DNA from: Tuberibacillus calidus DSM 17572
Lineage (GTDB): Bacteria > Bacillota > Bacilli > Bacillales > Sporolactobacillaceae
DNA length: 64,000 bases
Assembly (NCBI RefSeq): GCF_000430685.1
Contig: NZ_AUMM01000016.1
Span: 1 to 64,000 of the forward strand
Direction: 5' to 3'
Made by a program: the position numbers and the translations under genes. The notes beneath the pieces are model-generated. The model searched no databases and was not told the DNA's origin. It saw only the letters and a program-made list of their open reading frames with translations. Position 1 is the stretch's first letter. Every line of letters starts with the position of its first letter. Below are positions 6,271 to 24,368 of this stretch, piece after piece.

Positions 6271-6840
6271 GTGGATTTGGATATTTTAAGATTAACAGAA
6301 AATATAATCACCCAAGCTTTTGAAGAACAAAACGCACTTCTTTTACAAAAAGAAAAAACCTTCTTGCTATACTCCTATGCGATGGTGATGGCTGAGACAT
6401 ATCCTCAGATAGAATATATAAAGCCAACAAATGTACAGCTCAGAGTAGATCCAGACTTCATGTATGAGGAGAACTATGTTTTATCCCTTAAGAAAATGCT
6501 GACTTACATAGAACGGATCCTACAGCAACAACTGGATTTGATTGAAGCCAAACTGCTTTTTGACTCTTGGTTTTACGGTTCTACTGATGCTGGGAGTTTG
6601 CAATATGTCTATCATGAATCAGAGCTGGTCAATATTTCGGAGGCGGCTGATTACCTCAGTGTTTCCCGCACTATTATTTACAAAAATATCGAACGTGGCC
6701 TAGAGACGGTCGGGGAAAAGTACAATCAGAAAATTCCACGCTTTATGCTTGGGGCATGGAAAAAACCAGAAGTTGCTTTCCAACTACAATGGGTTGCTCA
6801 ATTGAAAAGAGCAAGGGAACAGACAATTGACCAGCCTTGA
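6271..6840 (+). CDS. HTH protein (MerR/excisionase-like DNA-binding domain)
   Basis: A 189-residue protein. Residues about 117-150 (LVNISEAADYLSVSRTIIYKNIERGLETVG) form the helix-turn-helix and wing typical of excisionase/MerR-like domains; the N-terminal 110 residues are helical and unassigned. GTG start with AAGGAG four bases before it. It overlaps the next small gene by 14 bases and lies just upstream of the repeat array and the tyrosine recombinase. A role as directionality factor or regulator of that recombinase is reasonable but inferred. Confidence 0.65.
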   Translation: MDLDILRLTENIITQAFEEQNALLLQKEKTFLLYSYAMVMAETYPQIEYIKPTNVQLRVDPDFMYEENYVLSLKKMLTYIERILQQQLDLIEAKLLFDSWFYGSTDAGSLQYVYHESELVNISEAADYLSVSRTIIYKNIERGLETVGEKYNQKIPRFMLGAWKKPEVAFQLQWVAQLKRAREQTIDQP

Positions 6841-7021
6841 CGATGTTTATAAGCAAATTGCCGAATTTGAGAAAAAATTCAGAGGTTCATTCTATACCCT
6901 ATTTTCCAATATGACCGAGCAAGAAATGGATGCACACCCTGAAGCAGTCGATATCCACGATTGGCGTGAACTGGAAAAGGAGAAACAGGAGCTTCTTGGC
7001 AGGTTAAGGGATGAGCGATGA
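6827..7021 (+). CDS. Small acidic protein coupled to the HTH gene
   Basis: A 64-residue, highly charged, helical protein with a TTG start inside the end of the preceding gene. The 14-base overlap suggests translational coupling. No family is recognised. The pair resembles a regulator plus small partner, but there is no direct evidence for a toxin-antitoxin pair. Confidence 0.5.
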   Translation: MTSLDDVYKQIAEFEKKFRGSFYTLFSNMTEQEMDAHPEAVDIHDWRELEKEKQELLGRLRDER

Positions 7022-7070
7022 GGGGAGTCTGTATTTTGTGCATTCCATTACTAAAAATGGCGTAATTAAG

Positions 7071-7256
7071 TTATGTGGCGAGATTTTTCGTTCTTAAATG
7101 CCCCTAAATTATTAAGGTGAACGGGAAAATGATCTTTACTCTCCACATAATCAATAATTATGTAGTCAAGTTATTTGTCAGGTTCGATATGGCCAAAATT
7201 TGGGCTAATACTTGAAAAGACGAGAAATGTCCAATACAATTATTTTAATCACATAA
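7071..7256. promoter_or_regulatory. Candidate recombination (resolution) site array
   Basis: Five copies of a TTATGTGG-like word lie in the 350 bases between the small acidic gene and the recombinase start: TTATGTGG 7071-7078, CCACATAA 7143-7150 (inverted), TTATGTAG 7158-7165, TTATTTGT 7171-7178 and CACATAA 7250-7256 (inverted). Two of them form an inverted pair, ACATAAT and ATTATGT, with a 5-base centre. That is the layout of a tyrosine recombinase core with flanking accessory repeats, as in the internal resolution site of Tn4430. The assignment is inferred. Confidence 0.45.
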
Positions 7257-7261
7257 CCATT

Positions 7262-7341
7262 AAAAAAGTGCTTTTTCATGTGGATGATGTTTCAGCTTAA
7301 AAAAAAAGCGGAACGTTGCCCATTTGAAACAGCACTTTTTT
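7262..7341 (+). promoter_or_regulatory. Structured leader with terminator-like hairpin before recombinase gene
   Basis: Outer arms AAAAAAGTGCT (7262-7272) and AGCACTTTTTT (7331-7341) enclose about 58 bases and end in a T-run about 30 bases before the recombinase start. The right half (TTTCA, a poly-A run, CGG, GTTG, GCACTTTTT, TCTGGCAA) matches the leader before tnsA at 8296-8404 in the same order. The two leaders are evidently duplicates. Premature termination relieved by some factor is a likely mode of control. Confidence 0.55.
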
Positions 7342-7370
7342 TGTTGTCTGGCAAAGAAGGGGAGAGGAAT

Positions 7371-8258
7371 TTGTACCTGGATCAATTTCGCGAAGAATTG
7401 ACGCGGGAAGGAAAGAGTTCGCTAACAGTGGAAGCGTATTTGACAGACATTAGGCAATTTCAATCTTGGCTTAAGGATACATTGGGATACGAGAGCGACA
7501 CCATTACGGAAACCGATGTGCGAGAGTACCGACAACATCTGAACTTGCACAAAAAACTCAAACCGACAAGCATTAATCGGAAACTGAAAAGCATTGTTTT
7601 GTTTCAGCGTTTTTTGGTGAATACAGGTGTTTGTAAAGAGGAAATTCAATTGAACAAAGTGTTAATGAAACATACCACTGAGCTAGATCGGGAAATTAAA
7701 GTCGTTGAAAAAACAGATTTGTATCGGTTGAAAAGAACGATTGAAGCGGAAAACAACAAACGAGATATTTGCATTTACTACTTACTTTTTGGAACGGGAA
7801 TCAGATGTTCGGAGTTAGTGAATATCGAACTGGATGACATTGTTCTGACAGAACGTAACGGCAAGAACAATTACAGCTATATCCTCATTCGCAACGGCAA
7901 AGGGAACAAGTCGCGAAAAGTGAACCTGAATGCCGCAACGGTGAATGCGGTTAAGGAATATTTAAATGTGCGTCCACACACGGATTCGAACAAACTGCTC
8001 ATTGGACAGCGGGGGCCTCTTACGCGATTGGCAATAAACAAAATCCTGGACAAATACAGCAGGAAAGCCCAATTGTCCGAGAAAATAAATCCCCATGCGG
8101 CTCGCCACACTTTTTGTTCCCAATTGATCAAAAGCGGCGTTGATCCAAAGACGGTTTGCCTCTTGACAGGGCATAGTTCCGTCGATCTTGTATATCGATT
8201 CTACGTCAATTCCAGTGCGGAAGATAAGCAAAGAGCGGTTGACGGGTTGCAAATCTGA
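7371..8258 (+). CDS. Tyrosine recombinase (XerC/D-like), putative resolvase
   Basis: A 295-residue integrase with the N-terminal SAM-like core-binding domain (residues about 1-95) and a complete catalytic domain: Arg145 in GTGIRCSEL, Lys177 in GKGNK, His242 and Arg245 in HAARH, His268 in GHSS and Tyr278 in RFYV. The TTG at 7371 has the strong site GGGGAGAGG and gives the usual Xer N-terminus; an in-frame ATG at 7278 lies inside the structured leader and has no site. It is followed by tnsA in the same direction. Housekeeping Xer proteins do not usually sit in a tns operon, so a role in resolving transposition cointegrates is inferred. Confidence 0.85.
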   Translation: MYLDQFREELTREGKSSLTVEAYLTDIRQFQSWLKDTLGYESDTITETDVREYRQHLNLHKKLKPTSINRKLKSIVLFQRFLVNTGVCKEEIQLNKVLMKHTTELDREIKVVEKTDLYRLKRTIEAENNKRDICIYYLLFGTGIRCSELVNIELDDIVLTERNGKNNYSYILIRNGKGNKSRKVNLNAATVNAVKEYLNVRPHTDSNKLLIGQRGPLTRLAINKILDKYSRKAQLSEKINPHAARHTFCSQLIKSGVDPKTVCLLTGHSSVDLVYRFYVNSSAEDKQRAVDGLQI

Positions 8259-8295
8259 TTCCCTGAAACCATACAATCTTACCTTATTTAAAGTG

Positions 8296-8380
8296 AAAGT
8301 GCCATGAGTTGTTGCAGGCACAGTGCCGTTTCAAAAAAACGGATGCTGTTGTCTAAATGCGAACTCATGGCACTTTTTCT
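8296..8380 (+). terminator. Structured leader / attenuator-like hairpin before tnsA
   Basis: A 15-bp perfect stem, AAAGTGCCATGAGTT (8296-8310) with AACTCATGGCACTTT (8362-8376), runs into TTTTTCTTTT. Inside the 51-base loop are two more perfect small hairpins, GGCAC/GTGCC and CCGTTT/AAACGG. The structure ends 25 bases before the GTG of tnsA, so it would act both as terminator of the recombinase gene and as attenuator for tnsABCD. A 31-codon frame beginning at the ATG at 8304 runs through it and stops in the tnsA ribosome binding site. Confidence 0.7.
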
Positions 8381-8404
8381 TTTCTGGCAATGGAGGTGAA
8401 GCAA

Positions 8405-9256
8405 GTGGCAAGAAGTTCAGATTGGACAGAAGCAAAACTGAAACGATTTTTGGCGGAGGGTCGGGGGCAAGGTGAACGTGAAAACTACCGCCCTTGGCTG
8501 ACGGTAATGGATATTCCCAGTCGCGGCAGAGCTAGCCGTGTGTTTTCAAGAAAGTGCAACCGTGTGGTGCATCTGCTCACCGACACACAACTTCGATACT
8601 TTTACCTGCTGGAATGGGATGAATCGATATTTGACATCAAGGAACAGTTTCCACTCCTGGATGTGGAAACCATCGTGGATCAAATGGACGAGTCGCTCTT
8701 AAAGCGGCTGAAGGATCCCAAAACGGAAGTGCCGCATGTGATCACCACAACGTTTGTGATGACGGCAAGGGATCAACAAGGCAGGGAAATCCAGTATGCC
8801 CGTGCCATCAAAGATGCCGCCGAATTGGAGAAAAAGGCGACATTGGAGAGATTGGAAATTCAGCGGCGGTATTGGGAGGAACGCCATGTGGATTTTGCCG
8901 TTGTGACCCAGCACGAAATTCCCGTTCAACGGAGCCGCAATATTGAATGGGTGTTGTCTGCCTTGAATGTCGAGGATTACGGTTTTTCCTCAACGCAAAT
9001 TCAAGAATACGCCTCGATTCTACAAGAGAAACTGTTGTCCTCTGACCAAAGGATCCGTACCATCCTGGCTTCCTTTGAAAGGGAGATGAAAGAAGAGGCG
9101 GGAACAGGTCTCCTGGTGTTCAGGTACTTGATCGCTTCCCGACTCATCCAGATCAACATGGATGCAGACATTCAGTTGTCTGCGACACCCAAGGATCTTG
9201 GGCTAAAGGTCAATATGCTTCAGGGAGGGGAGAGGAGATTTGGAGCTGTGCGTTAA
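8405..9256 (+). CDS. tnsA: Tn7-like transposition protein TnsA, catalytic residues altered
   Basis: A 283-residue TnsA homologue, near the usual length. In Tn7, TnsA is the restriction-endonuclease-like subunit that cuts the 5' strands at the transposon ends, in a complex with TnsB. The match to Tn7 is clear (GRGQG, PWLTV, LLEWDESIFDIKEQFPLL, LERLEIQRRYW). Recalled Tn7 residue Glu63 (SDLE) aligns with Gln62 here (TDTQ), and Asp114 (MSTDF) aligns with Thr116 (TTTF); Lys132 aligns with Lys136 (AIKDAAEL). Two of three active-site residues thus appear lost, while the C-terminal TnsC-binding part is kept. GTG start with GGAGGTG upstream; overlaps tnsB by 17 bases. Confidence 0.9.
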   Translation: MARSSDWTEAKLKRFLAEGRGQGERENYRPWLTVMDIPSRGRASRVFSRKCNRVVHLLTDTQLRYFYLLEWDESIFDIKEQFPLLDVETIVDQMDESLLKRLKDPKTEVPHVITTTFVMTARDQQGREIQYARAIKDAAELEKKATLERLEIQRRYWEERHVDFAVVTQHEIPVQRSRNIEWVLSALNVEDYGFSSTQIQEYASILQEKLLSSDQRIRTILASFEREMKEEAGTGLLVFRYLIASRLIQINMDADIQLSATPKDLGLKVNMLQGGERRFGAVR

Positions 9257-11378
9257 CACGGTCATCCGCTATGTCGGTGACCAGCGGCTTGAACGCATCC
9301 TTTGGATCGATGCGGAACAAAAAGCATGCTTTGTCATCGACATTCAAGGCAGGGAATTTCCAAAAAGCCGTTGGCTGGAGGAAATTCAATACGGCATTGA
9401 ACAAGGCTTGATCGTAATGGAAGAATCCGATCCTTGGGCTTGCTTTGTTGATCCGCAAATGATGTCTGCCAAGGAAAAAGAGAAGTGGGATAAGGATTGG
9501 CAAATTGTTCAGGCGATTGCTTCGAAAGATTTTGAACCGCAAATCTTTGTTTCAGCCGAACGGTCGAAGCTCATTCGCCAGGCGGCGGAGAGGTTTGGAT
9601 TGTCGGAAAAGCAGATTGGGAGAATCCTCAAAAGATATTGGAGCCGAGGCAAAACCAAGCTGGCGGTATTGCCCGATTTTGCCAACCGCGGCGGGAGGGG
9701 AAAAGAACGGAAGCAGACGGCAAGGAAACGGGGCAGGCCCAAAAAGTTTGATTCCATCTACGGGGAAATGAATGTGAGCGAAGAGGTCAAAAAGATTTTT
9801 CGGATTGCTCTGGACAAATATTACTATAAAGCCAATCGCCCCTCCCTCCGCTGGGCGTATGAACAAATGTTGAAGGAATATTGCTCAGAGGTTCGCAAAC
9901 TGGACAACGGAGTCGAGCTTCCCGTCATGGAAAGCGGCACGGCGATTCCTTCGTTTTCACAGTTCCGATACTGGTTTCGCAAATGGCGGGATTTGAAAAA
10001 AGAAATCTCCTTGCGGGAGAGTGCAAAAAAGTTCCATCAACGGTACCGCCCCGTTTTGGGTTCCACTCAGCAGGATGTGTTTGGTCCAGGATCCGTCTAT
10101 CAAATCGATGCAACGGTTGCCGATGTTTATTTGGTCAGTTCATTTGACCGCACAAAAATTATTGGGCGTCCTGTGCTGTACCTGGTGATGGACGGGTACA
10201 GCCGAATGATTGCGGGTCTATACGTTGGGCTGGAGGGTCCAAGCTGGCAAGGAGCGATGATGGCGTTGAAACATGCGTGCGAATCGAAGGTGGAATGGTG
10301 CCGTCAATTTGGGATTGAGATCCGTGAAGAAGATTGGCCATGCGTGTATTTGCCTGAATCGATTTTGGCGGACAGAGGAGAACTGCTTTCCGACAAGGCG
10401 TTGTCCATCATCGAGCATTTGCAAATTGCGGTGAAAAACACTTCCCCGTATCGCCCCGACTGGAAAGCAGTGGTGGAAAAACATTTTGACCTCATTCAAA
10501 CGCATGTAAAACCGTTTTTGCCTGGAGCAATTCAAGAGGACTTTCAGGAGCGGGGAGCCAAAGATTATCGGCTGAACGCCACACTTACCATCCCAGAGTT
10601 CACGCAAATCCTCATTAAATGTGTGTTGTACTACAATAATCGACATTATTTGACAGGATACCAGCGGGATGCTGAACAGATTGCACAAGATGTTCAGCCA
10701 ATTCCCATTCAACTTTGGAACTTTGGCATCCAGCACCGTTCGGGAAGGCTCCGCAGGGTGTCGGAAGATGTTTTGCGTTTCAATCTGTTGCCGACGGCGG
10801 AAGCGACGGTGACGCCTGGCGGCATCCGTTTCCAAGGCATGTATTACAGTTGTCCTACAGCGTTGAAGGAAAAATGGTTTGTTCATGCTCGCACACATGG
10901 CACACGAAAGTTGGTTGTTTCTTTCGACCCGCGGAATGTCAGCCAGATATTTTTGCGGTTAGGCCGAACATCGTACGATGTGTGCAATTTGCTGGAGTCC
11001 CAGGCTCGGTATCGCAATCTAAGTCTGGAAGACGTGAACTACCTGCTTGCATGGGAGAAATATAATCAGGCGACATCGCAAGACCTGGAATTGCGGGAGC
11101 GAATAACGCTGGCGGCGGAAATTGAGGCGATTGTCGTAGAAGCCAGGAAGAAAACCCATGCAGAATCCATTCCTATGTCCAAATCTCAAAAACTGAGGGA
11201 CATTCGAGAGAACAGGCGGCAAGAGAAAGAACGAAACCGAAAACAGGAAAGTTTTTCGTTGGTGAGATCTTCAGCAAGTGAACGTGTGGTACAGCGGAAT
11301 GAGGAGGAACAAGACGAACGAAGCTATTTTGGATTATTGAAGCAAAAACAGGAGGATGCGTTTTGTGGAGATCGTTAG
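9240..11378 (+). CDS. tnsB: Tn7-like transposase TnsB (DDE)
   Basis: A 712-residue transposase of the Mu/Tn7/IS21 rve family, the subunit that binds the ends and performs 3'-end cutting and strand transfer. The catalytic triad is visible: Asp290 in YQIDATVAD, Asp378 in LADRGE and Glu413 in VVEKHFD, with 34 residues between the last two. N-terminal helix-turn-helix domains (about residues 95-170) precede it, with a basic linker RGRPKK near residue 165. A beta-barrel Mu C-terminal domain (about 500-600) and a charged tail that would contact TnsC follow. TTG start after GGAGAGG, overlapping tnsA. All catalytic residues are intact, unlike in TnsA. Confidence 0.93.
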   Translation: MELCVNTVIRYVGDQRLERILWIDAEQKACFVIDIQGREFPKSRWLEEIQYGIEQGLIVMEESDPWACFVDPQMMSAKEKEKWDKDWQIVQAIASKDFEPQIFVSAERSKLIRQAAERFGLSEKQIGRILKRYWSRGKTKLAVLPDFANRGGRGKERKQTARKRGRPKKFDSIYGEMNVSEEVKKIFRIALDKYYYKANRPSLRWAYEQMLKEYCSEVRKLDNGVELPVMESGTAIPSFSQFRYWFRKWRDLKKEISLRESAKKFHQRYRPVLGSTQQDVFGPGSVYQIDATVADVYLVSSFDRTKIIGRPVLYLVMDGYSRMIAGLYVGLEGPSWQGAMMALKHACESKVEWCRQFGIEIREEDWPCVYLPESILADRGELLSDKALSIIEHLQIAVKNTSPYRPDWKAVVEKHFDLIQTHVKPFLPGAIQEDFQERGAKDYRLNATLTIPEFTQILIKCVLYYNNRHYLTGYQRDAEQIAQDVQPIPIQLWNFGIQHRSGRLRRVSEDVLRFNLLPTAEATVTPGGIRFQGMYYSCPTALKEKWFVHARTHGTRKLVVSFDPRNVSQIFLRLGRTSYDVCNLLESQARYRNLSLEDVNYLLAWEKYNQATSQDLELRERITLAAEIEAIVVEARKKTHAESIPMSKSQKLRDIRENRRQEKERNRKQESFSLVRSSASERVVQRNEEEQDERSYFGLLKQKQEDAFCGDR

Positions 11379-12993
11379 ATTGCCAAACGGAACGGAAGCG
11401 GTTGTTGCGGAGTATCACAAGCAGGTCATTCCAGATTTTGCGGGCAATCCATGGATCGAGGCGTTGCCAGACATTTTATCGCCTGAACAGGTGATCGAAG
11501 CATTGTCCAGTTATCCGCCGATGGATTCGTTGGAAAGACAGTTGGAACCGCATCTTCGCATTCACCTGATCCCGCAACGGTTTTCCCAATACTTTCAGCC
11601 TCTGGAACAACATCTGGTGCTTTATGATGCGATTTCGTCAATGATTCGGGGCGGATATGCGGAACGCAATCCGCTTTCGCCGTGCGTCATCAGGCGATTA
11701 TCCCAAACCGAGGACGCAGGGCATAGGGGCAATGTTTATCAGCCGCATTCGACTGCCAAAAGCATGGCGTTGATTGGCATTTCGGGTTCGGGGAAAACCA
11801 GCTCGCTGAACAGAATCCTTGCTCTCTTCCCGCAAGTAATCGTTCATTCCGAGTATCAGGGACAAGACTTTCCCAGATACCAGGTCACGCATATTCGTTT
11901 GGAGGCCCCATATGACGGGAGCCTAAAGGCTTTATGCTTGCAATTGTTTTCCGCCATCGATACGCTTTTGGGAACGCAGTATCTGGAGAGGTACGGAAAC
12001 GGAAAATGGTCAACGAACGTGATGATCCCGATTTTGTCCCGACTGTTGCAAAACATGGGAACAGGAATCTTGGTAGTGGACGAGATTCAACATTTAAGTC
12101 TCGCCAGAAGCGGCGGTTCCGCCCAAGTGCTCAATTTTTTCACGACCCTGATCAACACCGCCCAAATCCCTGTCCTGCTCGTGGGCACACCGAAAAGTTT
12201 GAAGGTGCTCACCTCGGAATTTCGCCAGGCACGACGAAGCTTAAGCGGTTATGGCAGTTTTCTGTGGGATCGTTTGAAAAAAGATGAAAACTGGGCATTG
12301 TTTCTGTCAGGATTGTGGCAGTATCAGTGGACAAGGCACGTGGAGGGGCTGACACAGGAATTGTCCGACGTCATGTACGAGGAGACGCAAGGGATTCCCG
12401 ACGTGGCGGTTAAGTTATTTACAACGGTTCAGGTTCGGGCGATCGTCACGGGAAAGGAAAGAATTACTACCAGTCTGATTCGCAAAGTGGCTAACGAGCA
12501 ATTGAGGATCATTCGTCCGATGCTTGACGCGTTAAGAAATGGCCGTAGGACACAGTTGCTGGATTATGAGGACATTGTCGTTCCCGATGTGGAAGAATTT
12601 ATTCAAAGGGAGCGAATTCAAATCGATGTGCAAACTTTTGTCCAGGAGGCACGAAAACGAACTGAATCGAGGCAAGAACAAATTGTGCGGGTGAAAGACG
12701 AAGCAATTATCAGGCTTCAGTTATTGGGGATTTCCGAACGACAGGCTTCAGAACTGGTGAAAACCGTTTTAACCGAGCAACCGAATGCTTCCGATGTCAA
12801 TGAAGTCGTCAAGGCGGCTTTTCAATTATCGATTCAAAAGAAACAGGACAGACAGGGCGGGAAGGTAAACCCTGCGGAAGACGAACGTGACTTGCGGTTG
12901 ATCGTGAAAAAGGGAAAGGAAGAGGGGATGACCGCTTATGATGCCCTGAAACAGGCAGGCGTCATACGGCTCGACAAGTGGTGTGCGGGGTGA
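11365..12993 (+). CDS. tnsC: Tn7-like AAA+ regulator TnsC
   Basis: About 542 residues. This is the ATP-dependent matchmaker that links the target selector to TnsA/TnsB. Walker A GISGSGKT is near residue 140 and Walker B ILVVDEIQHL near residue 230, followed by the sensor-1 segment VLLVGTPKS. The C-terminal 130 residues are helical and charged. The GTG at 11365 is nine bases from GGAGG, whereas the ATG at 11356 directly abuts it; either start overlaps the end of tnsB. tnsD follows six bases after the stop. Confidence 0.92.
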   Translation: MEIVRLPNGTEAVVAEYHKQVIPDFAGNPWIEALPDILSPEQVIEALSSYPPMDSLERQLEPHLRIHLIPQRFSQYFQPLEQHLVLYDAISSMIRGGYAERNPLSPCVIRRLSQTEDAGHRGNVYQPHSTAKSMALIGISGSGKTSSLNRILALFPQVIVHSEYQGQDFPRYQVTHIRLEAPYDGSLKALCLQLFSAIDTLLGTQYLERYGNGKWSTNVMIPILSRLLQNMGTGILVVDEIQHLSLARSGGSAQVLNFFTTLINTAQIPVLLVGTPKSLKVLTSEFRQARRSLSGYGSFLWDRLKKDENWALFLSGLWQYQWTRHVEGLTQELSDVMYEETQGIPDVAVKLFTTVQVRAIVTGKERITTSLIRKVANEQLRIIRPMLDALRNGRRTQLLDYEDIVVPDVEEFIQRERIQIDVQTFVQEARKRTESRQEQIVRVKDEAIIRLQLLGISERQASELVKTVLTEQPNASDVNEVVKAAFQLSIQKKQDRQGGKVNPAEDERDLRLIVKKGKEEGMTAYDALKQAGVIRLDKWCAG

Positions 12994-12999
12994 TGGCGG

Positions 13000-14835
13000 G
13001 TGCTGGTGTTTTTTCCTACCCCCTATCCCGACGAGCTCCTATATTCCGTTTGTGCCCGTTATCGTAAGCGGACAGGAGATCCAAGTCCCAAGAACCTGCT
13101 TCAGGATTTGTTTGGCAAGAACAACGTTCTGGCTTCCGTGGATTTGCCGTCTCATATCGGGGCGTTGGTTGCTCGGCTTCCTGTCGGTTCCAAAATAACG
13201 GCGGATCGATTGGTCATGGAGCATACCATGTATCCTTTTTACTCCGCGTTTCTTCCTCCGCAACAAGCAGAAGCAGTATTTTTGGCGATGGTCGGCGGAA
13301 GCGGCAACAGCGTTTATACCCGTGCGGGGGTGATGGCCAGTTCAATTCGTTCCGCAACGCATTTTCGGTATTGCCCCATTTGCTTTCAGGAAGATTTGGC
13401 TCGGCATGGAGAATTGTATTGGCACCGAATGCATCAAATTCCTGGCTGGGATGTGTGCGTCAAACATGGAACGTGGCTAAACGACAGCAAGGTTGCCCTG
13501 CGGCAAACGAACAAACATGTGTTTGCGGAACCGACAGAAGAAAACTGTCCATTGAATCAGGTTGCGTACATAACGGATTCGGAACTGCTTTCGCATTACC
13601 GTTCCATTGGCAACGGCATTGAAGCCTTGCTCACGCAACGTTTTCCCCATCGTCCGCTCGATTGGTTCCAGAGGCACTTTGAAGCCAAGCTTCGGCAAAA
13701 ACATTATGCTTCTTTTATCAGCGGGAAAGTGGATCAAACCAGACTTCGCCAGGATTTTGTTCGTTATTATGGAGAGGAATTTTTGGAGCGGTTGCAGTCC
13801 AGCTTGCGGGGAGAAAGCAATTGGCTTGCGTCGATGGTCAGAAAACATCGGCGATCCTTCCATCCCTTGCGACACTTGCTTTTGATAAATTTTTTGGGCA
13901 TCTCGCTTGAGGAAATGTTTTATCAGGATGAGCAGTACAAGCCGTTTGGGGATGGACCATGGATTTGTCTGAATCCCGCGGCGGAGCATTATCAACAAAA
14001 GGTGATTACCGATTTAACCGTAAGCACCTGTGAAAAAAACAAGGGAGTGATTGGTACTTTTTCATGTTCCTGCGGTTTCGTTTATACAAGGCGGGCTGGA
14101 GAAAGTGACCCGAACAAAATATCCAGGGTTAAACAATACGGGGAGGTTTGGGAACGCGAATGCCTGCGGCTGGCTAACGAGGGTTTAAGTTTGCGAGAAA
14201 TTGGCCGAAGGCTTCATGCGGATCCCATGACCGTTAAAAAGCACATCAGGGGAAAGGAAGTGAAGGATGGACGGCGGGATCTGGAGCGGGAACGGGATCG
14301 AACCGAGTGGCTTTCCCTTCAACAACAGCATCCGAATTTCTCCAAAACCGAGCTTCGAAAACTGAATCTCGCTCTGTACGCCCGTTTGTATCGCAAGGAT
14401 CGGATTTGGCTCAATGAGCATTCTCCTGAGCCTGCCCAAAAGAAGACCAGGAACATTAGAGTCGATTGGAATCAACGAGACCTTGAAGTGTTGGCGAAAG
14501 TTCAGCATGCCGTAAGTCGAATTTTGGAATCCGACGGAAAGCCCAAAAGACTGACGGTGGGCAGAATTGGGACCATTGCTGGTGTTACGGCCTTGCTGGA
14601 AAAACATATGAATCATCTGCCCAAAACGAAGAAATACCTTGAGCGAACAGTCGAGAGCGAAGAACAGTATCGGTTGCGAAAAATTCACTGGGCCATGGAG
14701 GAGTTGAAACGGCAAGGCGAACCGTTGCAGGAGTGGAAAGTGCTCAGGAAAGCGGGCATTCGCAAGGAACATGCTCCAATGGAGTTTTCCAGGAAACGCG
14801 ATTTGATTTTCGTTGAGAAGCTGGAAGAGATTTGA
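13000..14835 (+). CDS. tnsD: Tn7-like target-site selector TnsD (TniQ family)
   Basis: A 611-residue protein, longer than Tn7 TnsD. It opens with the TniQ signature FPTPYPDELLYSVCARY. The zinc finger follows at residues about 124-158 (YCPICFQEDL, then DVCVKHG). A second Cys cluster (SCSCGF) is near residue 355. An HTH-like segment (LSLREIGRRLHADPMTVKKHI) is near residue 390, and basic regions follow. TnsD proteins bind one chromosomal attachment site and recruit TnsC. Its target cannot be read from the sequence: no glmS, comM or tRNA gene is in the window. GTG start, six bases after tnsC. Confidence 0.88.
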   Translation: MLVFFPTPYPDELLYSVCARYRKRTGDPSPKNLLQDLFGKNNVLASVDLPSHIGALVARLPVGSKITADRLVMEHTMYPFYSAFLPPQQAEAVFLAMVGGSGNSVYTRAGVMASSIRSATHFRYCPICFQEDLARHGELYWHRMHQIPGWDVCVKHGTWLNDSKVALRQTNKHVFAEPTEENCPLNQVAYITDSELLSHYRSIGNGIEALLTQRFPHRPLDWFQRHFEAKLRQKHYASFISGKVDQTRLRQDFVRYYGEEFLERLQSSLRGESNWLASMVRKHRRSFHPLRHLLLINFLGISLEEMFYQDEQYKPFGDGPWICLNPAAEHYQQKVITDLTVSTCEKNKGVIGTFSCSCGFVYTRRAGESDPNKISRVKQYGEVWERECLRLANEGLSLREIGRRLHADPMTVKKHIRGKEVKDGRRDLERERDRTEWLSLQQQHPNFSKTELRKLNLALYARLYRKDRIWLNEHSPEPAQKKTRNIRVDWNQRDLEVLAKVQHAVSRILESDGKPKRLTVGRIGTIAGVTALLEKHMNHLPKTKKYLERTVESEEQYRLRKIHWAMEELKRQGEPLQEWKVLRKAGIRKEHAPMEFSRKRDLIFVEKLEEI

Positions 14836-15427: not shown

Positions 15428-16297
15428 ATGGATAAAGAAACAGCCGCCCATCATTTCGAAACATCGAAGTTAAAAGAGATCGTGATGCAGTCAAGGGATA
15501 TCATTTACTACTGCCGCATCAAACCAAAGCCGCAAGTGTTGTTTGTCAATGGGGCCTTGGAGCAGTATTTCGGCAGAGGCTCGGTACAACTGTGTTATGA
15601 GCATCCCGAACACATTTACCGTCATTTGCACCCTGATTTCCGTGACATCATCCAGAAAAAATGGAGTGGGGATTTCGACTATGACAAGCCCATCATTCAA
15701 TGTTGGATGGATGAAAATGGACGGGAACGGTGGTTTGAAGAGGTGGCCACGCCTGTTTATGAGAAGGGTGAGCTCGTTGCAATTCATGGTATTCTCCGAA
15801 ACATCGATGGGTGGATCCAGCTCCAGAAAGATCTGGAGTATCGGATCTCGCATGACGCTTTGACGGGGGCTTATAGCAGGGATTATTTTGAGAGATTATT
15901 GAAAAGATACGATAAAGAAGTAGACGTTCCTATGGCAATCATCCTATGCGACCTGGACGAATTGAAAACGGTGAATGATCACTTCGGACACAGGGAAGGG
16001 GATCGACTGATTAAGGAAGCCGCCAAAATACTGATGAATTTTCAGTCGGAAAAAGTGCTTGTTTCAAGAATTGGCGGCGACGAGTTTGCCATCCTGGTCA
16101 TCGAAATGGATTTATCGGAAGTAAAAAAGCTGGTTGAAAAAATGGATGAAGCCATAAATGGCTACAATAACAGGGATTGGCCGATGAAGATGTCCTATGG
16201 ATACGCTTATTCCCATTCGTCCAAAGGGAACATGGAGCAATTGTTTGAGGAGGCGGATCGGAACATGTATATCAATAAATTTGGAAAAAAGGAATGA
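15428..16297 (+). CDS. PAS-GGDEF diguanylate cyclase
   Basis: A 289-residue soluble protein. Residues about 15-130 are a PAS/PAC-like sensor (ending HGILRNIDGWIQ), joined by a short helix to a GGDEF domain (about 135-288). The domain begins HDALTGAYSRDYFE, has the metal/base-binding run DLDELKTVNDHFGHREGD, and the intact RIGGDEFAIL active-site loop. It should make cyclic di-GMP from GTP. No RxxD inhibitory site precedes the loop. No membrane segment or EAL domain is present. AGGAGG stands before the ATG. It is likely transposon cargo or a flanking accessory gene. Confidence 0.9.
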   Translation: MDKETAAHHFETSKLKEIVMQSRDIIYYCRIKPKPQVLFVNGALEQYFGRGSVQLCYEHPEHIYRHLHPDFRDIIQKKWSGDFDYDKPIIQCWMDENGRERWFEEVATPVYEKGELVAIHGILRNIDGWIQLQKDLEYRISHDALTGAYSRDYFERLLKRYDKEVDVPMAIILCDLDELKTVNDHFGHREGDRLIKEAAKILMNFQSEKVLVSRIGGDEFAILVIEMDLSEVKKLVEKMDEAINGYNNRDWPMKMSYGYAYSHSSKGNMEQLFEEADRNMYINKFGKKE

Positions 16298-18197: not shown

Positions 18198-18881
18198 ATG
18201 AGAGAGATTCTTGAAAAGTGTATGCTTTTGGATGAGCAAAGGAGTCTGATAGTAAAGGGAATCCAGGAGGGGAAGAAAGAATATCAAACAATAAAAGCTT
18301 TGCTTCCTACATTCACAACAAATACTTATGCTCCTCGTTTACAGTACGATTGTGTCAATACTCATGTTGAAAAAATGATCTTAAGCAATCCACATACACA
18401 GATGAAGGTTATTAAGAAACAGGCTGGTCTACATCCATACATTGTTATCCATGATACTGTGAGAAACATATTTATCTTGGTTTCAAAATTACCAAAAAAC
18501 AAATATATTTACAATCCGTGCAGATACCGTGGTGATTTTGCTTCTTCGAATTTCGACCGCCTCTTGGAGCTTGGGGCTCCTGCAAACGAATTGTTGGAGG
18601 ATTCAGTTTACCAACCGTCATTGTCTCTCGGGCCAGATTATCATCCTTTTGGAATCATAGTAAGTTATGATCGGGATAGTGACATGATTTTCGAGGGTGC
18701 TTTAAGACCTGATCAAGAAGATTGGATATATAAAGAAGATATTTCAAATTACATTACACTCAATTCTCAAGACATTATTCCTTTAAACAGCTACAAAGTT
18801 GATGATATTGAACCACGCCTTAAAGTACCACAAGAAGATAGCGATATTGTTATTAAATTGAAAAATAAAACTTCATCATAG
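18198..18881 (+). CDS. Hypothetical protein paired with XRE-ImmA/IrrE
   Basis: A 227-residue protein. The central part (VIHDTVRNIFILVSKLPKNKY then YRGDFASSNF) has the alternating strands of a small alpha/beta fold, and similar proteins are often found next to ImmA/IrrE genes, perhaps DUF5986, though I am not sure of the family. It has no membrane segment. The gap to the next gene is 30 bases, so the two form an operon; a target or partner of the protease is a natural guess. Confidence 0.55.
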   Translation: MREILEKCMLLDEQRSLIVKGIQEGKKEYQTIKALLPTFTTNTYAPRLQYDCVNTHVEKMILSNPHTQMKVIKKQAGLHPYIVIHDTVRNIFILVSKLPKNKYIYNPCRYRGDFASSNFDRLLELGAPANELLEDSVYQPSLSLGPDYHPFGIIVSYDRDSDMIFEGALRPDQEDWIYKEDISNYITLNSQDIIPLNSYKVDDIEPRLKVPQEDSDIVIKLKNKTSS

Positions 18882-18911
18882 AACAACACCTTAGATTAGG
18901 AGTAATTTCAT

Positions 18912-20057
18912 ATGAGTGTAAAACATGAACCAAAGTTCAATCCAAAGAGGCTAAGGGAGGCACGCTTGGTACGCGGCTTGACTATTAGTGAGCTTGCAGA
19001 AAAAATTAATGTTTCTAAGCAAGCAATATCTCAATTTGAACTTGGAGAGCATACACCTAAACCAGAAACAATGATGGCGATAATCAATACGCTTAAATTC
19101 CCAAAGAGCTTCTTTTATCGAGACTTTAAAGAACAATTTGTTGGAAACACGTTTTTCCGTGCAAATGCAACTGCATCAAAGAAAAGTAAGGAGATTCAGT
19201 TTCACAAAACTTTATTAGCTGGGTATATCTACGAATATTTATCAGAATATATTGAGTTTCCAGAGCTAAATTTGCCAGATACTTCCCAGTATTTTAATTC
19301 AGAATGGGATAATGATTCAATTGAACAGTTAGCTTATCAAGTTCGTAAACACTGGGAACTTGGGGATAGACCTATTGCAAATATTGTTCACTTATTAGAG
19401 AAAAATGGGATCATGGTCTTTTCTGTTGATACTGATAATGAGAAGGTCGATGCTTTTTGCCAACAACGACAAGGCAGGCCTTTCATTTTTCTTGGTAACG
19501 ATAAATCAGCATTTAGAAGACAGTTTGATGGTGCTCATGAATTAGGCCACATTTTGATGCACAAGGATATAGATAACCAAGATGTTCTTAGTCGGACTGA
19601 GTTTAAAAATATGGAGAACCAGGCAAATCGGTTTGCTTCGGCATTTTTGATGCCAGCAGAGGCATTTGCCAAGACAGTGACTTCTACATCATTGCTTCAT
19701 TTTGTAGAATTAAAAAAATATTGGAATGTATCCATCGCCGCTATGTTACGCAGGTGCTTAGACTTGAAACTGATTGATGAAAGCAAATACACATCTTTGG
19801 TAAAGCAAATGTCAATGAAGAAAATGAGAACCAAAGAACCTCTCGATGATGTCGTTCCTTTACAGGAACCTGTTGTTTTAAAGAAAAGTATTTTGTTGTT
19901 GTTGGAGAAAAAGATTAAAAATGAACTGCAATTAGTTCAAGAAATATCTGTACCACAAGAATACATCGAAATGTTGTGCAATCTTGAAAAAGGAACTCTT
20001 AATTATAAAGAGCCCGAGCCAACAATAAGATTGGTTAAAAAAACGGACGAAACCTAA
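18912..20057 (+). CDS. XRE HTH plus ImmA/IrrE metallopeptidase
   Basis: A 381-residue fusion. Residues about 10-65 are a Cro/C1-type HTH (LREARLVRGLTISELAEKI, VSKQAISQFELG). Residues about 170-290 are an ImmA/IrrE (COG2856) peptidase with the zinc motif HELGH and the downstream E in ENQANRFASAFLMP. Such proteins bind DNA and are released by proteolysis, as with ImmR/ImmA of ICEBs1, and commonly control mobile or defence genes. The last 90 residues are unassigned. It lies between an unknown gene and the SIR2 cluster. Confidence 0.88.
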   Translation: MSVKHEPKFNPKRLREARLVRGLTISELAEKINVSKQAISQFELGEHTPKPETMMAIINTLKFPKSFFYRDFKEQFVGNTFFRANATASKKSKEIQFHKTLLAGYIYEYLSEYIEFPELNLPDTSQYFNSEWDNDSIEQLAYQVRKHWELGDRPIANIVHLLEKNGIMVFSVDTDNEKVDAFCQQRQGRPFIFLGNDKSAFRRQFDGAHELGHILMHKDIDNQDVLSRTEFKNMENQANRFASAFLMPAEAFAKTVTSTSLLHFVELKKYWNVSIAAMLRRCLDLKLIDESKYTSLVKQMSMKKMRTKEPLDDVVPLQEPVVLKKSILLLLEKKIKNELQLVQEISVPQEYIEMLCNLEKGTLNYKEPEPTIRLVKKTDET

Positions 20058-20063
20058 TACAAG

Positions 20064-20095
20064 AAAGCTCCAGTTCAATTCTGAACGGGAGCTTT
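20064..20095 (+). terminator. Hairpin after XRE-ImmA/IrrE gene
   Basis: AAAGCTCC-A-GTTCA pairs with TGAAC-G-GGAGCTTT. The stem is strong but A-rich sequence follows, so termination efficiency is uncertain. Confidence 0.45.
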
Positions 20096-20150
20096 AAAAA
20101 TAAATGAAAAAGAAGGCGTTCAACATTTTGATATTGAATGAAGGTGAATT

Positions 20151-20984
20151 ATGCTCACAATAGAAGAATATATCGCTCGGCGTAAAAAAGAAGATCAATT
20201 GAACGAGTTCAGTTTAAAAGATCGAATGGAAAACATGAAAATATGCGTCAATTATGTATTTGAATATTTTAATCAGTACCTCGACGTTTCAAAATTAAAT
20301 GAGCGAACGGTATTAAATAATGAGCGGCTCGAAAAGTTTAGAAAAACCATCAGTCAACATGATTCGGACATTCAGGAATGGTTGCTCAATAATTATGATG
20401 AATACGGTAAAAAAGTGAATCACTCGATCATTAATTACTTAAAAAAGGACGACCTCTTCTATCTTTATTATTTGGATAGCGAATTTAGGAGCATTTCATA
20501 TGATTGCTACGCTCATTTGATTAATAAGAATCCTTTTTTGAAGGATCAAACAGAAATGCTATTTTTGTTTATTAAGGATTATCATCAAATTCAAGTTCAA
20601 CAAACAAAATCGGCCTACCAGTTATCTTTTTCAGAAGAAATCGATCAATGGGTTGAAGCGACATGGCAGAAATATAAGGTTGATATAATTGGTTTTTGTA
20701 AGGATTGGACTCATCGTTTTTCAGACAATGAAGATCAATGGCCAGTCAGTCATCGAAAGAAAAGCAACAGTAAATGGCGAAAGTATGATTATGATTACAA
20801 GCAGAAAAATAATTTATTTAATCTGAATTCACTTTACAAAAGGATTTCGAACAGACCCTTCATAAAAGGTAATAAGCAATATCTTGAATTAATAATGATG
20901 TACTTCTGGCTTCATGAAATCGTAGGGGATGAGGACAATTATTGGCAAGAGTATTTAAATAAATCTCTAGTTATTGCCAATTAA
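20151..20984 (+). CDS. Hypothetical protein of the SIR2 cluster
   Basis: A 277-residue, almost wholly helical, aromatic- and Lys-rich soluble protein that I do not recognise. It has no catalytic motif. It lies 37 bases before the SIR2 gene in the same direction and shares its low G+C content, so it was probably acquired with it. A sensor or scaffold role in a defence operon is possible, but only by position. Confidence 0.5.
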   Translation: MLTIEEYIARRKKEDQLNEFSLKDRMENMKICVNYVFEYFNQYLDVSKLNERTVLNNERLEKFRKTISQHDSDIQEWLLNNYDEYGKKVNHSIINYLKKDDLFYLYYLDSEFRSISYDCYAHLINKNPFLKDQTEMLFLFIKDYHQIQVQQTKSAYQLSFSEEIDQWVEATWQKYKVDIIGFCKDWTHRFSDNEDQWPVSHRKKSNSKWRKYDYDYKQKNNLFNLNSLYKRISNRPFIKGNKQYLELIMMYFWLHEIVGDEDNYWQEYLNKSLVIAN

Positions 20985-21021
20985 CAGGTAAACATTTATT
21001 GATTATGAGAAAAGGATTGAG

Positions 21022-22380
21022 ATGGGTACAATGAATTATCAAGATTATATTCTCGAAGTTAGTGAAGATATAAAGGATTGCTTAAAAGAGATGGGGACGC
21101 AACCCATTTTATTCATCGGGTCAGGTTTGTCACAAAGATATTTTAATGGTCCAAGTTGGATTGGATTATTAGAAGCTCTACAGAAACATTGCCCATTAAT
21201 TCCTAATGAGGTAGGGTTTTATCTTCAAGATCAGTACAAGTTAGAAGAGATAGGAACTGAATTTACTAAATATTATCGTGACTGGGCTTGGGCAAATAAA
21301 GATTTATTCCCTGAAGAACTATTTCAATCTCATGTACCAAAATCATCTTACATAAAATATAAAATTAAACGTATTTTTGAAGAAATTACTCCTAATGATG
21401 TAAATGAAATTCAAAATGAAGAATATAAGAGAGAGATCGAGCTATTGAGGAATATTCAACCTCATGCAATTATAACAACCAACTATGATACTTTTTTAGA
21501 AAAAGTTTTTGTTGATTATCAACCGATTATTGGCCAGCAGATATTAAAACCAGATACCATGTCAATTGGGGAAATATATAAAATTCATGGTTGTATCACT
21601 AATTACATTGATTTGGTTTTTAATAAAGAGGACTACGATATTTTTATGACAAAAAAGAAATATTTAAGTGCTAAATTACTTACTTTTTTTGCTGAGCACC
21701 CATTATTATTTGTCGGTTATGGTGGGAATGATAAAAACATTCTTAATATACTTTCCGATATTGATGAAATTCTTTCGAATGAAGGAGAATTGATCCCAAA
21801 TATCTACTTCTTGGCTTATAACAAGAATCTGTCTGGGAATTCCAGACCTCAAAAAGAAAAAATATTTGTTGTGAATGGGAAAGAAATACGAGTGAAATAT
21901 ATAGAAGCTAAAAATTATGATTGGGTATTTGAAGCTTTTTCAGCAAATAAAGCAGTTGATAATGTTCACCCTAAATTACTCAGGGCTTTACTGGCACGAA
22001 CTTACAAATTAGTTAGAAGTGATATTCCAAGACGAAGTGTAGATGTTGATTTCGAAGTGATTGAAAAGGTAATAAGTGAAGATAAAGAACTTCCCAGATT
22101 GTATGGAGTGGCTTTGTTAGATGATCCAAGCCATATCAATATTCAATATCCTTATACTTTAACGCAAGTTGGCGAGTTACTTGGCTACCCCAGTTGGCAT
22201 GGTGCAGATAAGTTGATTAATCAGATTAAATTGGAAAAAGGTATAAACATAAAGGCATCCGACAATAAATATCATGTTACAATCAAAATTGGAAAGTCGG
22301 AAATGAACAAATATTCTCAAGAAGCCGTCAGACTGTTATTAAAAGTGAAAAACAGCAATGAATATAACGTTGAAATTTAA
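21022..22380 (+). CDS. SIR2-family protein (putative NAD-consuming defence effector)
   Basis: A 452-residue protein. The N-terminal 270 residues carry the SIR2 Rossmann signatures of defence proteins: FIGSGLS near residue 33, ITTNYDTFLEKVF near 155, KIHGC near 190 and LFVGYGGNDKNI near 230. There are no zinc cysteines. The C-terminal 170 residues are unassigned and end in a possible winged-helix segment (LTQVGELLGYPSWHGADKLINQI). SIR2 domains in Thoeris, DSR and SIR2-HerA deplete NAD+ on phage infection; the same chemistry is inferred here. AAAGGA precedes the ATG. Confidence 0.82.
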   Translation: MGTMNYQDYILEVSEDIKDCLKEMGTQPILFIGSGLSQRYFNGPSWIGLLEALQKHCPLIPNEVGFYLQDQYKLEEIGTEFTKYYRDWAWANKDLFPEELFQSHVPKSSYIKYKIKRIFEEITPNDVNEIQNEEYKREIELLRNIQPHAIITTNYDTFLEKVFVDYQPIIGQQILKPDTMSIGEIYKIHGCITNYIDLVFNKEDYDIFMTKKKYLSAKLLTFFAEHPLLFVGYGGNDKNILNILSDIDEILSNEGELIPNIYFLAYNKNLSGNSRPQKEKIFVVNGKEIRVKYIEAKNYDWVFEAFSANKAVDNVHPKLLRALLARTYKLVRSDIPRRSVDVDFEVIEKVISEDKELPRLYGVALLDDPSHINIQYPYTLTQVGELLGYPSWHGADKLINQIKLEKGINIKASDNKYHVTIKIGKSEMNKYSQEAVRLLLKVKNSNEYNVEI

Positions 22381-22448
22381 AATATTGCAGTCAAATAATT
22401 CCCGTTGTGAATAATTTATATTTATTTCTCATATTTGGGAGGATCAAT

Positions 22449-22934
22449 GTGGGGTATTTCGATTTTGCTCAAATATGTTTAAACGGCCATGTTGTAAATG
22501 ATTCTGCAGGAACTTATCCCCAATATAACGAAAATTTTTGCACAGAATGTGGAGCAGAAACAATAACAAAATGCCCATCTTGTAATACTCATATTCGAGG
22601 TGATTACCATTCTGACGCAGTAGTCATAATAGGTGGTAGTAGGTATAAACTTCCAAAATTTTGTCATAATTGTGGTCAGCCTTATCCTTGGACAAAGATG
22701 AAAATTGAAGCCGCACAAGAGCTAGCATCTGAAATTAATGAATTAACTGATGATGAAAGGGAACTTCTCGCAAAAAGTATTGACGAAATCATAAAGGATA
22801 CACCGAAGACAACTGTAGCCGCGACAAGATTCAAGAAGTTACTTGCCAAAGTAGGAGCTCCCATTGCGGAATCTTTCCGAGAAGTATTAGTTGACATTAT
22901 AAGTGAAACTGCGAAGAAATCCATTTGGGGATAG
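22449..22934 (+). CDS. DUF2321 zinc-ribbon protein
   Basis: A 161-residue protein starting at the GTG at 22449, with GGGAGG six bases upstream; a longer frame back to 22407 has no site. It begins MGYFDFAQICLNGHVVND, as DUF2321 proteins do, with two to three Cys pairs (CTECG, CPSCN, CHNCGQ) forming zinc ribbons. The helical tail (ELTDDERELLAKSIDEIIKDTP) is also family-like. Its function is unknown. Here it lies between two SIR2-like genes, which suggests a sensor or adaptor. Confidence 0.8.
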   Translation: MGYFDFAQICLNGHVVNDSAGTYPQYNENFCTECGAETITKCPSCNTHIRGDYHSDAVVIIGGSRYKLPKFCHNCGQPYPWTKMKIEAAQELASEINELTDDERELLAKSIDEIIKDTPKTTVAATRFKKLLAKVGAPIAESFREVLVDIISETAKKSIWG

Positions 22935-22979
22935 CTGGTATTTTTTGTTCTACAAAATTTTACATATCGGAGGACAATA

Positions 22980-24005
22980 ATGAAGTCTGACGAGTATGAA
23001 GCTATAATGAAAAATCGCCCCCATGTTGTTTTGTTGGGTGCTGGAGCGAGTGTTGCTGCCATTCCAAACGGAGATAAATATAATAAGCGAACCTCGGTCA
23101 TGGAAGGATTCATTGAAAAATTAAATATGACTGAAACAATTAAAAGGGCTAATTTACAGACAAAAAGCAAAAACTTAGAAGATATTTATTCAGAATTAAA
23201 AAGCCGTCCTGAATGTGAACCAATTGCTATTGAGTTAGAAAAACGTATCTATGACTATTTCTTTAATTTTGTAATACCTGATGAACCTACTGTGTACGAT
23301 TTTTTGATACTTAGTTTAACAAAGAAAGATTTGATAGCTACTTTTAATTGGGATCCATTGTTGTTACAAGCTTACACGAGAGTTCGACAAATAACAGATA
23401 ATTTACCTAAGCTAGCATTCCTACATGGAAACGTTTATGTAGGCTTGTGTCTAGAACATAAACGTGCAGGTCTTATTCAAAATAGATGTCCAGTTTGTAG
23501 AAAAGCATTTAAACCCTCCAAATTATTATATCCTATCAGAGAAAAGGATTACTCGAATGACATATTCATAAGAGATAATTGGAACTTGACTCGATACTAT
23601 TTGGAAAGGGCATATATGTTTACGATCTTTGGATACAGTGCCCCAAAAACAGATGTTTCTGCTATTGCATTGCTTAAAGAAGCTTGGGGAGAAGTAGAGA
23701 ATCGGTCACTTGAAGAAATTGAAATTATTGATATTAAATCAGATGAGGAACTTAGAGATACTTGGAAAGACTTTATTCATACACATCATTATTCTTGCCA
23801 CAAAAGTTTTTTTGATTCTTCTTTAGGGAAATTTCCACGTAGAACATGTGAAGCTACTTTTGATAGATTGATGAACACGAGGCATTTGGATGATTCAAAA
23901 GGTTTTAAGCCTGAAATGGATTTTAAGCAAATTGGAGATTATTTAAATTTCTTACTTGAGGAAGAGAAGGAAGGCAAAAAAGTTCTTAACAATCCGTACT
24001 TATAA
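22980..24005 (+). CDS. SIR2-like protein with cysteine cluster
   Basis: A 341-residue protein with a SIR2-type fold: VVLLGAGASV near residue 18, LIATFNWDPLL near 120, FLHGNVY near 145 and FTIFGYSAPKTD near 215. Between the last two is a C...H...CPVC cluster (residues about 154-175) resembling the structural zinc module of true sirtuins. The C-terminus is unassigned. GGAGG stands before the ATG. A second SIR2-type protein in one operon is unusual; the canonical Asn-Asp pair appears as NWD, and the catalytic state is uncertain. Confidence 0.7.
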   Translation: MKSDEYEAIMKNRPHVVLLGAGASVAAIPNGDKYNKRTSVMEGFIEKLNMTETIKRANLQTKSKNLEDIYSELKSRPECEPIAIELEKRIYDYFFNFVIPDEPTVYDFLILSLTKKDLIATFNWDPLLLQAYTRVRQITDNLPKLAFLHGNVYVGLCLEHKRAGLIQNRCPVCRKAFKPSKLLYPIREKDYSNDIFIRDNWNLTRYYLERAYMFTIFGYSAPKTDVSAIALLKEAWGEVENRSLEEIEIIDIKSDEELRDTWKDFIHTHHYSCHKSFFDSSLGKFPRRTCEATFDRLMNTRHLDDSKGFKPEMDFKQIGDYLNFLLEEEKEGKKVLNNPYL

Positions 24006-24073
24006 ACTATCACTTTTTAACTTACCCCTAATATGTAGACAGCTAATAAATCCCGTCTTGGGGTAATAAAAAC

Positions 24074-24368
24074 TGTCCAGGGACAATAAAAAATGTCCAA
24101 GAAGCCGAGCGTGGTTAGGGGGTTGCCCTGATCCATGCTTGGCTTTTTCTTTTGTTGAAAGTGGTACAGGGGAAAGGGGAAAGGAAAGAACATTGGTATA
24201 TCAAGCAATTTCCCAATATACCCCATCCCGCTATGTTCCGATTGAGCTTCTCCATTTGTTCACTCAAATTATTTCCCTGGACATTTCCCAACGTTCCATT
24301 TCCCTTGACCCTTCCCCCTGATTCCCTAATTTCTTCCAAATGGACGGACACTTTTTATTTTCCTGGCA
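24074..24368. mobile_element. Mini IS21-like element (non-coding, 295 bp)
   Basis: The left end reads TGTCCAGGGACAATAAAAA and then TGTCC; the right end, reversed, reads TGCCAGGAAAATAAAAAGTG and then TCC, so the termini are imperfect inverted repeats in IS21 style. The interior contains an imperfect inverted repeat of about 25 bp (AAGGGGAAAGGAAAGAAC near 24,175 against GTTCCATTTCCCTTGACCC near 24,290) and a hairpin, but no transposase. No target duplication could be recognised. Confidence 0.5.

Follow-up and report, generated by a model that had tools for sequence, protein, structure and literature searches.

The first 64,000 nucleotides of contig NZ_AUMM01000016.1 of Tuberibacillus calidus DSM 17572, referred to here as the window, contain a Tn7-like element that probably belongs to a large clade in which TnsA is kept as a non-cutting protein and a short mini-element, with one right (R) and one left (L) end, is copied into the target together with the whole donor circle. 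Members of the clade have lost catalytic residues of TnsA, their tnsA genes are associated with genes for site-specific recombinases, and their insertions show duplicated mini-elements and target duplications. In the window, homologues of TnsA, TnsB, TnsC and TnsD/TniQ are encoded in that order, with a complete Xer-like tyrosine recombinase gene immediately 5' of them and all in one direction (operon 7278-14835); this arrangement had been proposed in an earlier reading of the DNA (the sequence-only reading) and is confirmed by Pfam. The tnsA gene (8405..9256, plus strand; open reading frame 8357-9256), which likely starts at the GTG at 8405 after GGAGGTGA (by eye), encodes the Pfam TnsA N and C domains. 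It is followed on the same strand by tnsB (9240..11378; Mu-transposase C domain, the DDE residues by eye only), by the AAA ATPase gene tnsC (11356..12993; TniB/AAA) and by tnsD (13000..14835; TniQ and TnsD domains).

When a profile built from the TnsA of the window and of nine relatives was aligned to the E. coli TnsA 1F1Z (E 4e-59), the residues of cut-and-paste Tn7, E63, D114 and K132, fell on columns with Q, T and K in the window protein, which bears out the Q and T noted earlier at the catalytic sites. The sample consists of 130 distinct TnsA loci obtained from profile and protein searches and from retrieved flanking stretches; because the search profile was made from TnsA proteins that lack D114 (D-less) and one search kept the best 80 loci, the following proportions are not population frequencies. 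D114 is present in 60 of the 130 loci (59 are E-D-K and one is without the E stretch) and absent in 70, the window among them, all of which have T, S or N at this position. Of these 70, 46 also have E63Q, one has G and 23 keep E63. In a FastTree phylogeny of 114 TnsB rows, a 98% branch splits 63 D-less rows from 51 others; the only one of the 64 D-less rows on the other side is locus L083, which sits there on a long branch. The D-less elements are spread through Bacilli and Clostridia.

As the TnsA dN/dS (ratio of nonsynonymous to synonymous substitution rates) is 0.11-0.13, the protein is kept by selection. Presumably it is retained for contacts with TnsB and TnsC, both of which are contacted by the TnsA of Tn7. 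The earlier description of TnsA as inactive holds for the loss of the catalytic residues, and from this loss we predict that the D-less proteins are without nuclease activity. It might be argued that the changes are compensated, with other acidic residues serving in an enzyme that still cuts, and the retention of K132 in 129 of the 130 loci, of E63 in 23 of the 70 D-less proteins, and of the protein itself under selection would be in line with this. However, every D-less protein has T, S or N in place of D114, and the insertions examined have the shape of cointegrates, so we consider an active enzyme very unlikely.

The insertions themselves can be seen in relatives. In nine D-less genomes a short R-L mini-element occurs twice in direct orientation, once on either side of the tns block, and the outermost 5-bp flanks, which would be the target duplication, are equal in eight of the nine cases where both outer junctions are readable (by chance, about 1 in 1024 for each). 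These cointegrate-shaped insertions with target duplications support the copy-and-paste transposition suggested by the sequence-only reading, and the insertion of several relatives beside glmS, the TnsD target, supports its proposal of TnsD-guided targeting. In the glmS-adjacent group the order is glmS, R end, 1.2-4.2 kb of DNA, L end and then tnsABCD; the R end has a TGTTAAA-like tip and three sites 20 bp apart, the L end has three spaced sites (ATTTAACA), and a second R-L unit is located 34-65 kb further on in genomes G769, G768 and G770. The two G770 units are 100% identical over 2805 bp, with outer flanks ATAAT, those of G768 are 99.9% identical over 3191 bp (AATAG), and those of G769 are 100% identical over 1027 plus 1021 bp on either side of an N run (AAAAT). 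Both units of G159 are cut at contig ends, from which the outer flanks were read as TGTGG.

Outside this group, four other pairs with equal flanks are about half a kilobase in size: G406 (tyrosine recombinase; 555 bp, 100%; ATTGT; glmS identified by Pfam), G644 (no recombinase; 499 bp, 100%; GGATG), G053 (tyrosine recombinase; 474 bp, 98.7%; GCAAT) and G012 (serine recombinase; 475 bp, 100%; GTTTT). The paired genomes with equal flanks include elements with a tyrosine recombinase, with a serine recombinase and with no close recombinase. The ninth pair, in G541 (tyrosine recombinase; 608 bp, 100%), lies behind an RNA-methyltransferase gene. Repeated unit ends are also present at contig ends in G772 and G781, and these genomes were left out of the count. 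In G406 and G644 a second R-like end follows directly, which suggests tandem elements; the shared copy in these two genomes is without the initial TGT. Inner flanks of different families resemble each other and are roughly inverted (in G541, CCCTACTA, then the mini-element, then TAGTAGGG), as would be expected if the inner flanks travel with the donor. The idea considered initially, that the recombinase and tns genes lie between the ends, was rejected; in the window and in the delimited relatives both are outside the minimal R-L ends, and the tns genes are inside the outermost ends, R1 and L2.

The pairs were found by a blind paired-end scan in the glmS-adjacent group, and by an R-site spacing scan and self-BLAST across tnsA in the others. 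One blind scan gave nothing clear, and a shorter-range self-BLAST missed pairs that were found later. With a stricter joint filter there was no match in the window, but this filter did not recover the G541 pair either. A search for the L-end pattern gave one unit in G771 and none in G782. The mini-elements have no long open reading frame (the window and G541 were checked) and are purine/pyrimidine-asymmetric by eye; several contain, immediately inward of the R end, a hairpin that resembles a terminator.

The same structures could be explained if the whole block were a composite transposon of the ordinary kind, bounded by R1 and L2 as its outer ends and moving as a unit by replicative transposition with resolution at its single internal res site (see below), the inner ends being relics or gene-converted. 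The outer target duplications fit this explanation too, the recombinase and res-like site are inside R1-L2 as they are inside Tn4430-like elements, and the inner flanks look conserved within families. However, the two copies are 98.7-100% identical within each genome, whereas from one genome to another they vary greatly (441-608 bp to 4.2 kb). Duplication anew with every insertion would account for this better than long-established paired ends would; we therefore regard the composite transposon as unlikely.

The window has a mini-element of its own, 441 bp in size (24034..24474, plus strand), which has a TGT tip, R sites, an interior, L sites and an ACA tip (ends recognized by eye); its longest open reading frame is 101 amino acids. 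It is located nine kb past tnsD, beyond a GGDEF gene and defence-like cargo. The R end (24044..24098, plus strand) has three TnsB-like sites, TAATAAATCCCGTC, TAATAAAAACTGTCC and CAATAAAAAATGTCC, which are 20 bp apart in the same layout as in G770 and G541, and the L end (24346..24474, minus strand) has at least two inverted sites (24346-24359 and 24450-24463) plus the ACA tip. Since both flanks, CCCCTAATA and TAGTAGGAAATTC, belong to the donor (inner) type, this copy looks like a circle junction or a tandem. A copy with 88% identity is present directly after glmS (by Pfam) on contig C28 of the same genome. Homologues are also found in G428, where R1 is right after glmS and 32.8 kb upstream of tnsA, and in G666, whose contig ends inside R2, 19 kb downstream. 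Two other sets of repeats in the window, 17651/17696 and 539-618, were tried as element ends and rejected.

In the mechanism that we favor, TnsA would be retained as a non-cutting structural subunit. Without cutting of the 5' strands, TnsB would join the ends of the short R-L mini-element to a site chosen by TnsD, and replication through the joined ends would copy the mini-element and bring in the whole donor circle, with tnsABCD, the recombinase and the cargo. The product would be an integrated cointegrate, that is, a chromosomal block between two matching mini-elements with a 5-bp target duplication, and recombination between the two copies, by host RecA or possibly the encoded recombinase, would release the circle again.

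That the donor is circular is inferred, and a few neighbouring genes are relevant to it. Genes for a ParM-like protein and a P4-type primase are found upstream in L169 and a primase-helicase gene in L170, which would fit a circular replicon. Of the ten genes tested on the 28.8-kb backbone contig of G159, those recognized are CBASS-like, type I restriction and metal-transport genes instead. No relative of the window TnsA was found in viral contigs, the best TnsA matches in plasmids have less than 60% identity, and megablast of a G053 stretch against plasmids gave nothing. Plasmid NC_009130 carries TnsE.

Several observations weigh against copying-in of a donor circle. The 608-bp pair of G541 is 100% identical and yet has unequal outer flanks (AGTGG versus GCTAA). 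There is no clear pair in G277, G686 (only repeats, which may be insertion sequences), G171 or G086, and the sequence is interrupted by the ends of contigs in G428 and G666 and by runs of N in G121. The comparison with catalytic TnsA, in itself in favor of the mechanism, is limited. No pair (at least 97% identity, at least 200 bp) was found from about -40 to +60 kb in the four chromosomes with catalytic TnsA, two of which, G038 and G160, are also clear from -60 to -40 kb; these controls are few, and for the other two, G009 and G066, the comparison reached no further than about -40 kb, whereas the upstream copies in G541, G406, G644 and G053 are at -42 to -45 kb, beyond that range. The window copy, with its donor-type flanks on both sides, has no second identical copy, and chromosomal junctions were not found for it. 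No free circle was seen in the plasmid search, and the best plasmid relative, from Peribacillus asahii, has E and D at the two sites. Finally, no dif-like core is present inside the seven mini-elements examined, and there is no sign of the recombinase acting on the duplicated copies.

The association of D-less TnsA with recombinases is pronounced. Among loci with at least 1 kb of upstream sequence, 38 of 65 D-less loci (window included) and none of 59 loci with D114 have an upstream recombinase gene that is on the same strand and terminates no more than 2 kb from tnsA (Fisher 1.7e-14, uncorrected for kinship). For loci with at least 8 kb upstream, any such recombinase occurs in the retrieved stretch in 34/43 and 1/25, respectively. 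The 38 recombinases comprise 24 of the tyrosine type, including that of the window, and 14 of the serine type; two of the latter are fragments of 68 and 89 residues. The serine recombinases were recognized by clustering the upstream open reading frames of loci without a tyrosine recombinase; four were confirmed by Pfam and the rest were identified with profiles from those four. Nine of the tyrosine recombinases have only 191-221 residues, and the one tested, from L169, matches the catalytic domain alone.

The sequence-only reading had expected a tyrosine recombinase beside such TnsA proteins; the co-occurrence stands for site-specific recombinases in general, but the recombinase is often of the serine type, even within close relatives. 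At least 10 changes of class are needed on the TnsB tree, and the type also switches among closely related elements. For example, the tns block of L169 has 87% DNA identity to the window, with similarity from 8291 on, and its recombinase is of another, short type. The recombinase gene is probably an exchangeable module of either type. Two kinds of relatives had been named as speaking against the coupling. Recombinases next to normal TnsA are absent from the sample, and the other kind, the same TnsA changes without a recombinase, does occur: in 27 of the 65 D-less loci, the same strand encodes no recombinase within 2 kb. In eight of these 27, a tyrosine recombinase is encoded on the opposite strand and its near end is 2.4-6.2 kb upstream; L083 has one 2.5 kb upstream on the same strand. 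Four loci with glmS upstream and no close recombinase (L032, L044, L046 and L053) have a tyrosine recombinase 26-40 kb downstream, and there is no recombinase within 1 Mb in the one-contig genome G644. In three D-less loci with no recombinase found upstream (L043, L174 and L175), a conserved 160-residue unknown open reading frame overlaps the start of the tnsA frame.

The 27 loci are what could be said for the recombinase being unrelated cargo, or part of a neighbouring element, that is there by chance. This explanation appears extremely improbable in view of the absence of recombinases from the D114 loci, their position on the same strand and often less than 150 bp from tnsA, the 10 class changes at the same spot, and purifying selection. 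The window recombinase has a dN/dS of 0.069 relative to L168 and 0.055 relative to L170. It is XerC/XerD-like (7278..8258, plus strand; start perhaps at about 7371), has Pfam Phage_integrase and N-terminal SAM-like domains, and by eye has the residues R, K, HxxR, H and Y.

The earlier reading also described an inverted-repeat array at 7021-7370 and, before it, a pair of genes for a helix-turn-helix (HTH) and a small protein. Both are present in some form. The array splits into a res-like site and a hairpin, and the pair (6271..7021, plus strand), two open reading frames in the window, is probably one frameshifted HTH-type gene because it is a single open reading frame in L170. The dif/res-like core (7139..7170, plus strand) has inverted arms CTCTCCACATAA and TTATGTAGTCAAG around the 7-bp spacer TCAATAA, and a possible accessory recombinase motif, TTATGTGGCGAG (7071..7082, plus strand), forms an inverted pair with 7139-7150. 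This putative site adjoins the recombinase in the window, and the block is kept in two close relatives, L168 and L170, where a minus-strand gene sits between it and the recombinase. For the 20-bp centre of the core, a search of its own genome gave one exact copy; with up to two mismatches there are 8 matches (two are the same site on both strands) as compared to 6 for a reversed control, which is chance level. The array's hairpin (7262..7341, plus strand; 22-nt arms, 86%) ends in a T run where the recombinase gene begins, and a hairpin of similar layout with a T run at its end (8290..8382, plus strand; 21-nt arms, 90%) is located between the recombinase and tnsA. Neither matches an Rfam family at gathering score, and there are sub-threshold matches only. 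The two leader hairpins may attenuate the recombinase gene and tnsA.

With a putative core of inverted motifs and a possible accessory motif adjoining it, the tyrosine recombinase of the window resembles TnpI in Tn4430. However, Tn4430 has a Tn3-family transposase and its res is between the transposon ends, whereas the res-like site described here is outside the minimal ends. Because the recombinase, the res-like site and tnsABCD are all outside these ends, a simple cointegrate would have a single backbone res, and the TnpI-like cointegrate resolution proposed in the sequence-only reading is not predicted; the res-like site would be duplicated only under transposition of the composite. Alternatively, the recombinase might act on sites in both mini-elements as the excision/integration enzyme of an integrated circle. 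Its location beside the tns genes in 38 of the 65 D-less loci and the use of two unrelated recombinase classes would agree with such a role, which we nevertheless doubt: the seven mini-elements lack a core-like site, a res-like site is conserved in the backbone, and the same paired structure exists in elements without a close recombinase. The recombinase most likely acts at the res site beside it in the backbone, where it would resolve multimers of the circle, or cointegrates formed when the composite moves as a whole, by its outer ends R1 and L2, from one replicon to another. We favor these tasks over TnpI-like resolution because the backbone contains the putative site of the recombinase, whereas the seven mini-elements showed none.

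Taken to its full extent, the copy-in mechanism would describe a plasmid-like, circular replicon in which a Tn7 transposase, guided by TnsD and containing a dead TnsA, plays the part of the 'integrase': the replicon would enter by copying a half-kilobase mini-element into attTn7, leave by recombination between the two copies, and have an exchangeable recombinase that keeps the circle monomeric or resolves composites. We see the arguments for and against this complete lifestyle as evenly balanced.

The remainder of the window deserves brief mention. A gene for a PAS-GGDEF protein (15428..16297, plus strand) follows tnsD, and its DNA is conserved at this location in L168-L170. Next is AT-rich, defence-like cargo (18198..24005, plus strand) with ImmA/IrrE-HTH, SIR2-like and unknown genes; the defence-like cluster as a whole (18198-27569) extends to both sides of the mini-element and includes SIR2, ImmA/IrrE, GmrSD, nucleotidyltransferase and AbiEii-like AAA genes. 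The right part of the window (28-62 kb) looks chromosomal in gene content. A repeat of about 130 bp (28306-28435) has more than 50 diverged matches in its own genome, often in short tandem arrays. A short conserved repeat region, possibly a partition or origin site, is present in the window (539-618), in L170 (2836-2915) and in L169 (6204-6260); the ParM-like gene (Pfam) adjoins it in L169, the L170 DNA is similar, and in the window the end of an IS110-like transposase gene abuts it (by eye). The proteins encoded at 781-2001 in the window and 7242-8366 in L043, family unknown, look alike by eye only and are possible replication proteins of these elements; the window protein has no Pfam or NCBIfam match.

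If the copy-in mechanism is correct, nature uses the cointegrate phenotype of a dead TnsA, which is known so far mainly from laboratory mutants, and selection can maintain a TnsA that has lost its catalytic acids. Island borders that place the tns genes within a single R-L pair would then miss the real structure in a group of Bacillota, and the elements would be natural systems for site-specific integration of large cargo that bring in a whole circle. No description of a natural D114-less TnsA with a recombinase was found in the partly covered literature that was searched, and the covered parts of a review (PMC11406308) do not mention a dead-TnsA group. The inactivated tyrosine recombinase that serves as a target selector, as far as can be taken from the sections consulted of Faure et al. 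2023 (PMC10293859), is a different thing.

The elements resemble Tn7 and its catalytic relatives in their TnsABCD set, in the glmS-adjacent insertion of several members and in the TGT...ACA tips of most delimited members. They also share with Tn7 an R end with close-spaced and an L end with wide-spaced TnsB-like sites and a 5-bp target duplication. They differ in that TnsA is without D114 and often also E63, the tns genes are outside the minimal ends, and an insertion has the ends in duplicate together with the donor backbone. Tn5053/Tn402-like elements and clades 2 and 3 of Benler et al. 2021 (PMC8649781) also combine replicative Tn7-like transposition with a resolvase (tnsR) of the serine or tyrosine type; in the portions consulted, these authors predicted such transposition from tnsA loss and tnsR gain. 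In those clades the tnsA gene is lost, whereas here it is present without the catalytic residues. In the same portions, serine resolvases outside those branches were judged to be unsupported in that role, partly because tnsA is present, an argument that is weakened by the present results.

An experimental parallel is the TnsA-D90A mutant of the V. cholerae CRISPR-transposon, which gave more than 95% cointegrate reads with the donor backbone between duplicated mini-transposons (PMC8188705, relevant parts). Duplication of the mini-transposon and insertion of the whole donor backbone are common to that mutant, to type V-K CRISPR-associated transposons (CAST) and to the elements described here; the former are a laboratory mutant and a TnsA-less system, while the latter are a natural lineage under selection. 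The translocatable units and pseudo-compound transposons of IS26/IS6, as described in the parts seen of PMC7986276, are similar in that integration of a circle with one element results in two direct copies around the cargo. In IS26/IS6, however, the transposase is inside the insertion sequence, whereas the mini-elements described here do not contain tnsABCD, and it is presumably TnsD that selects their target.

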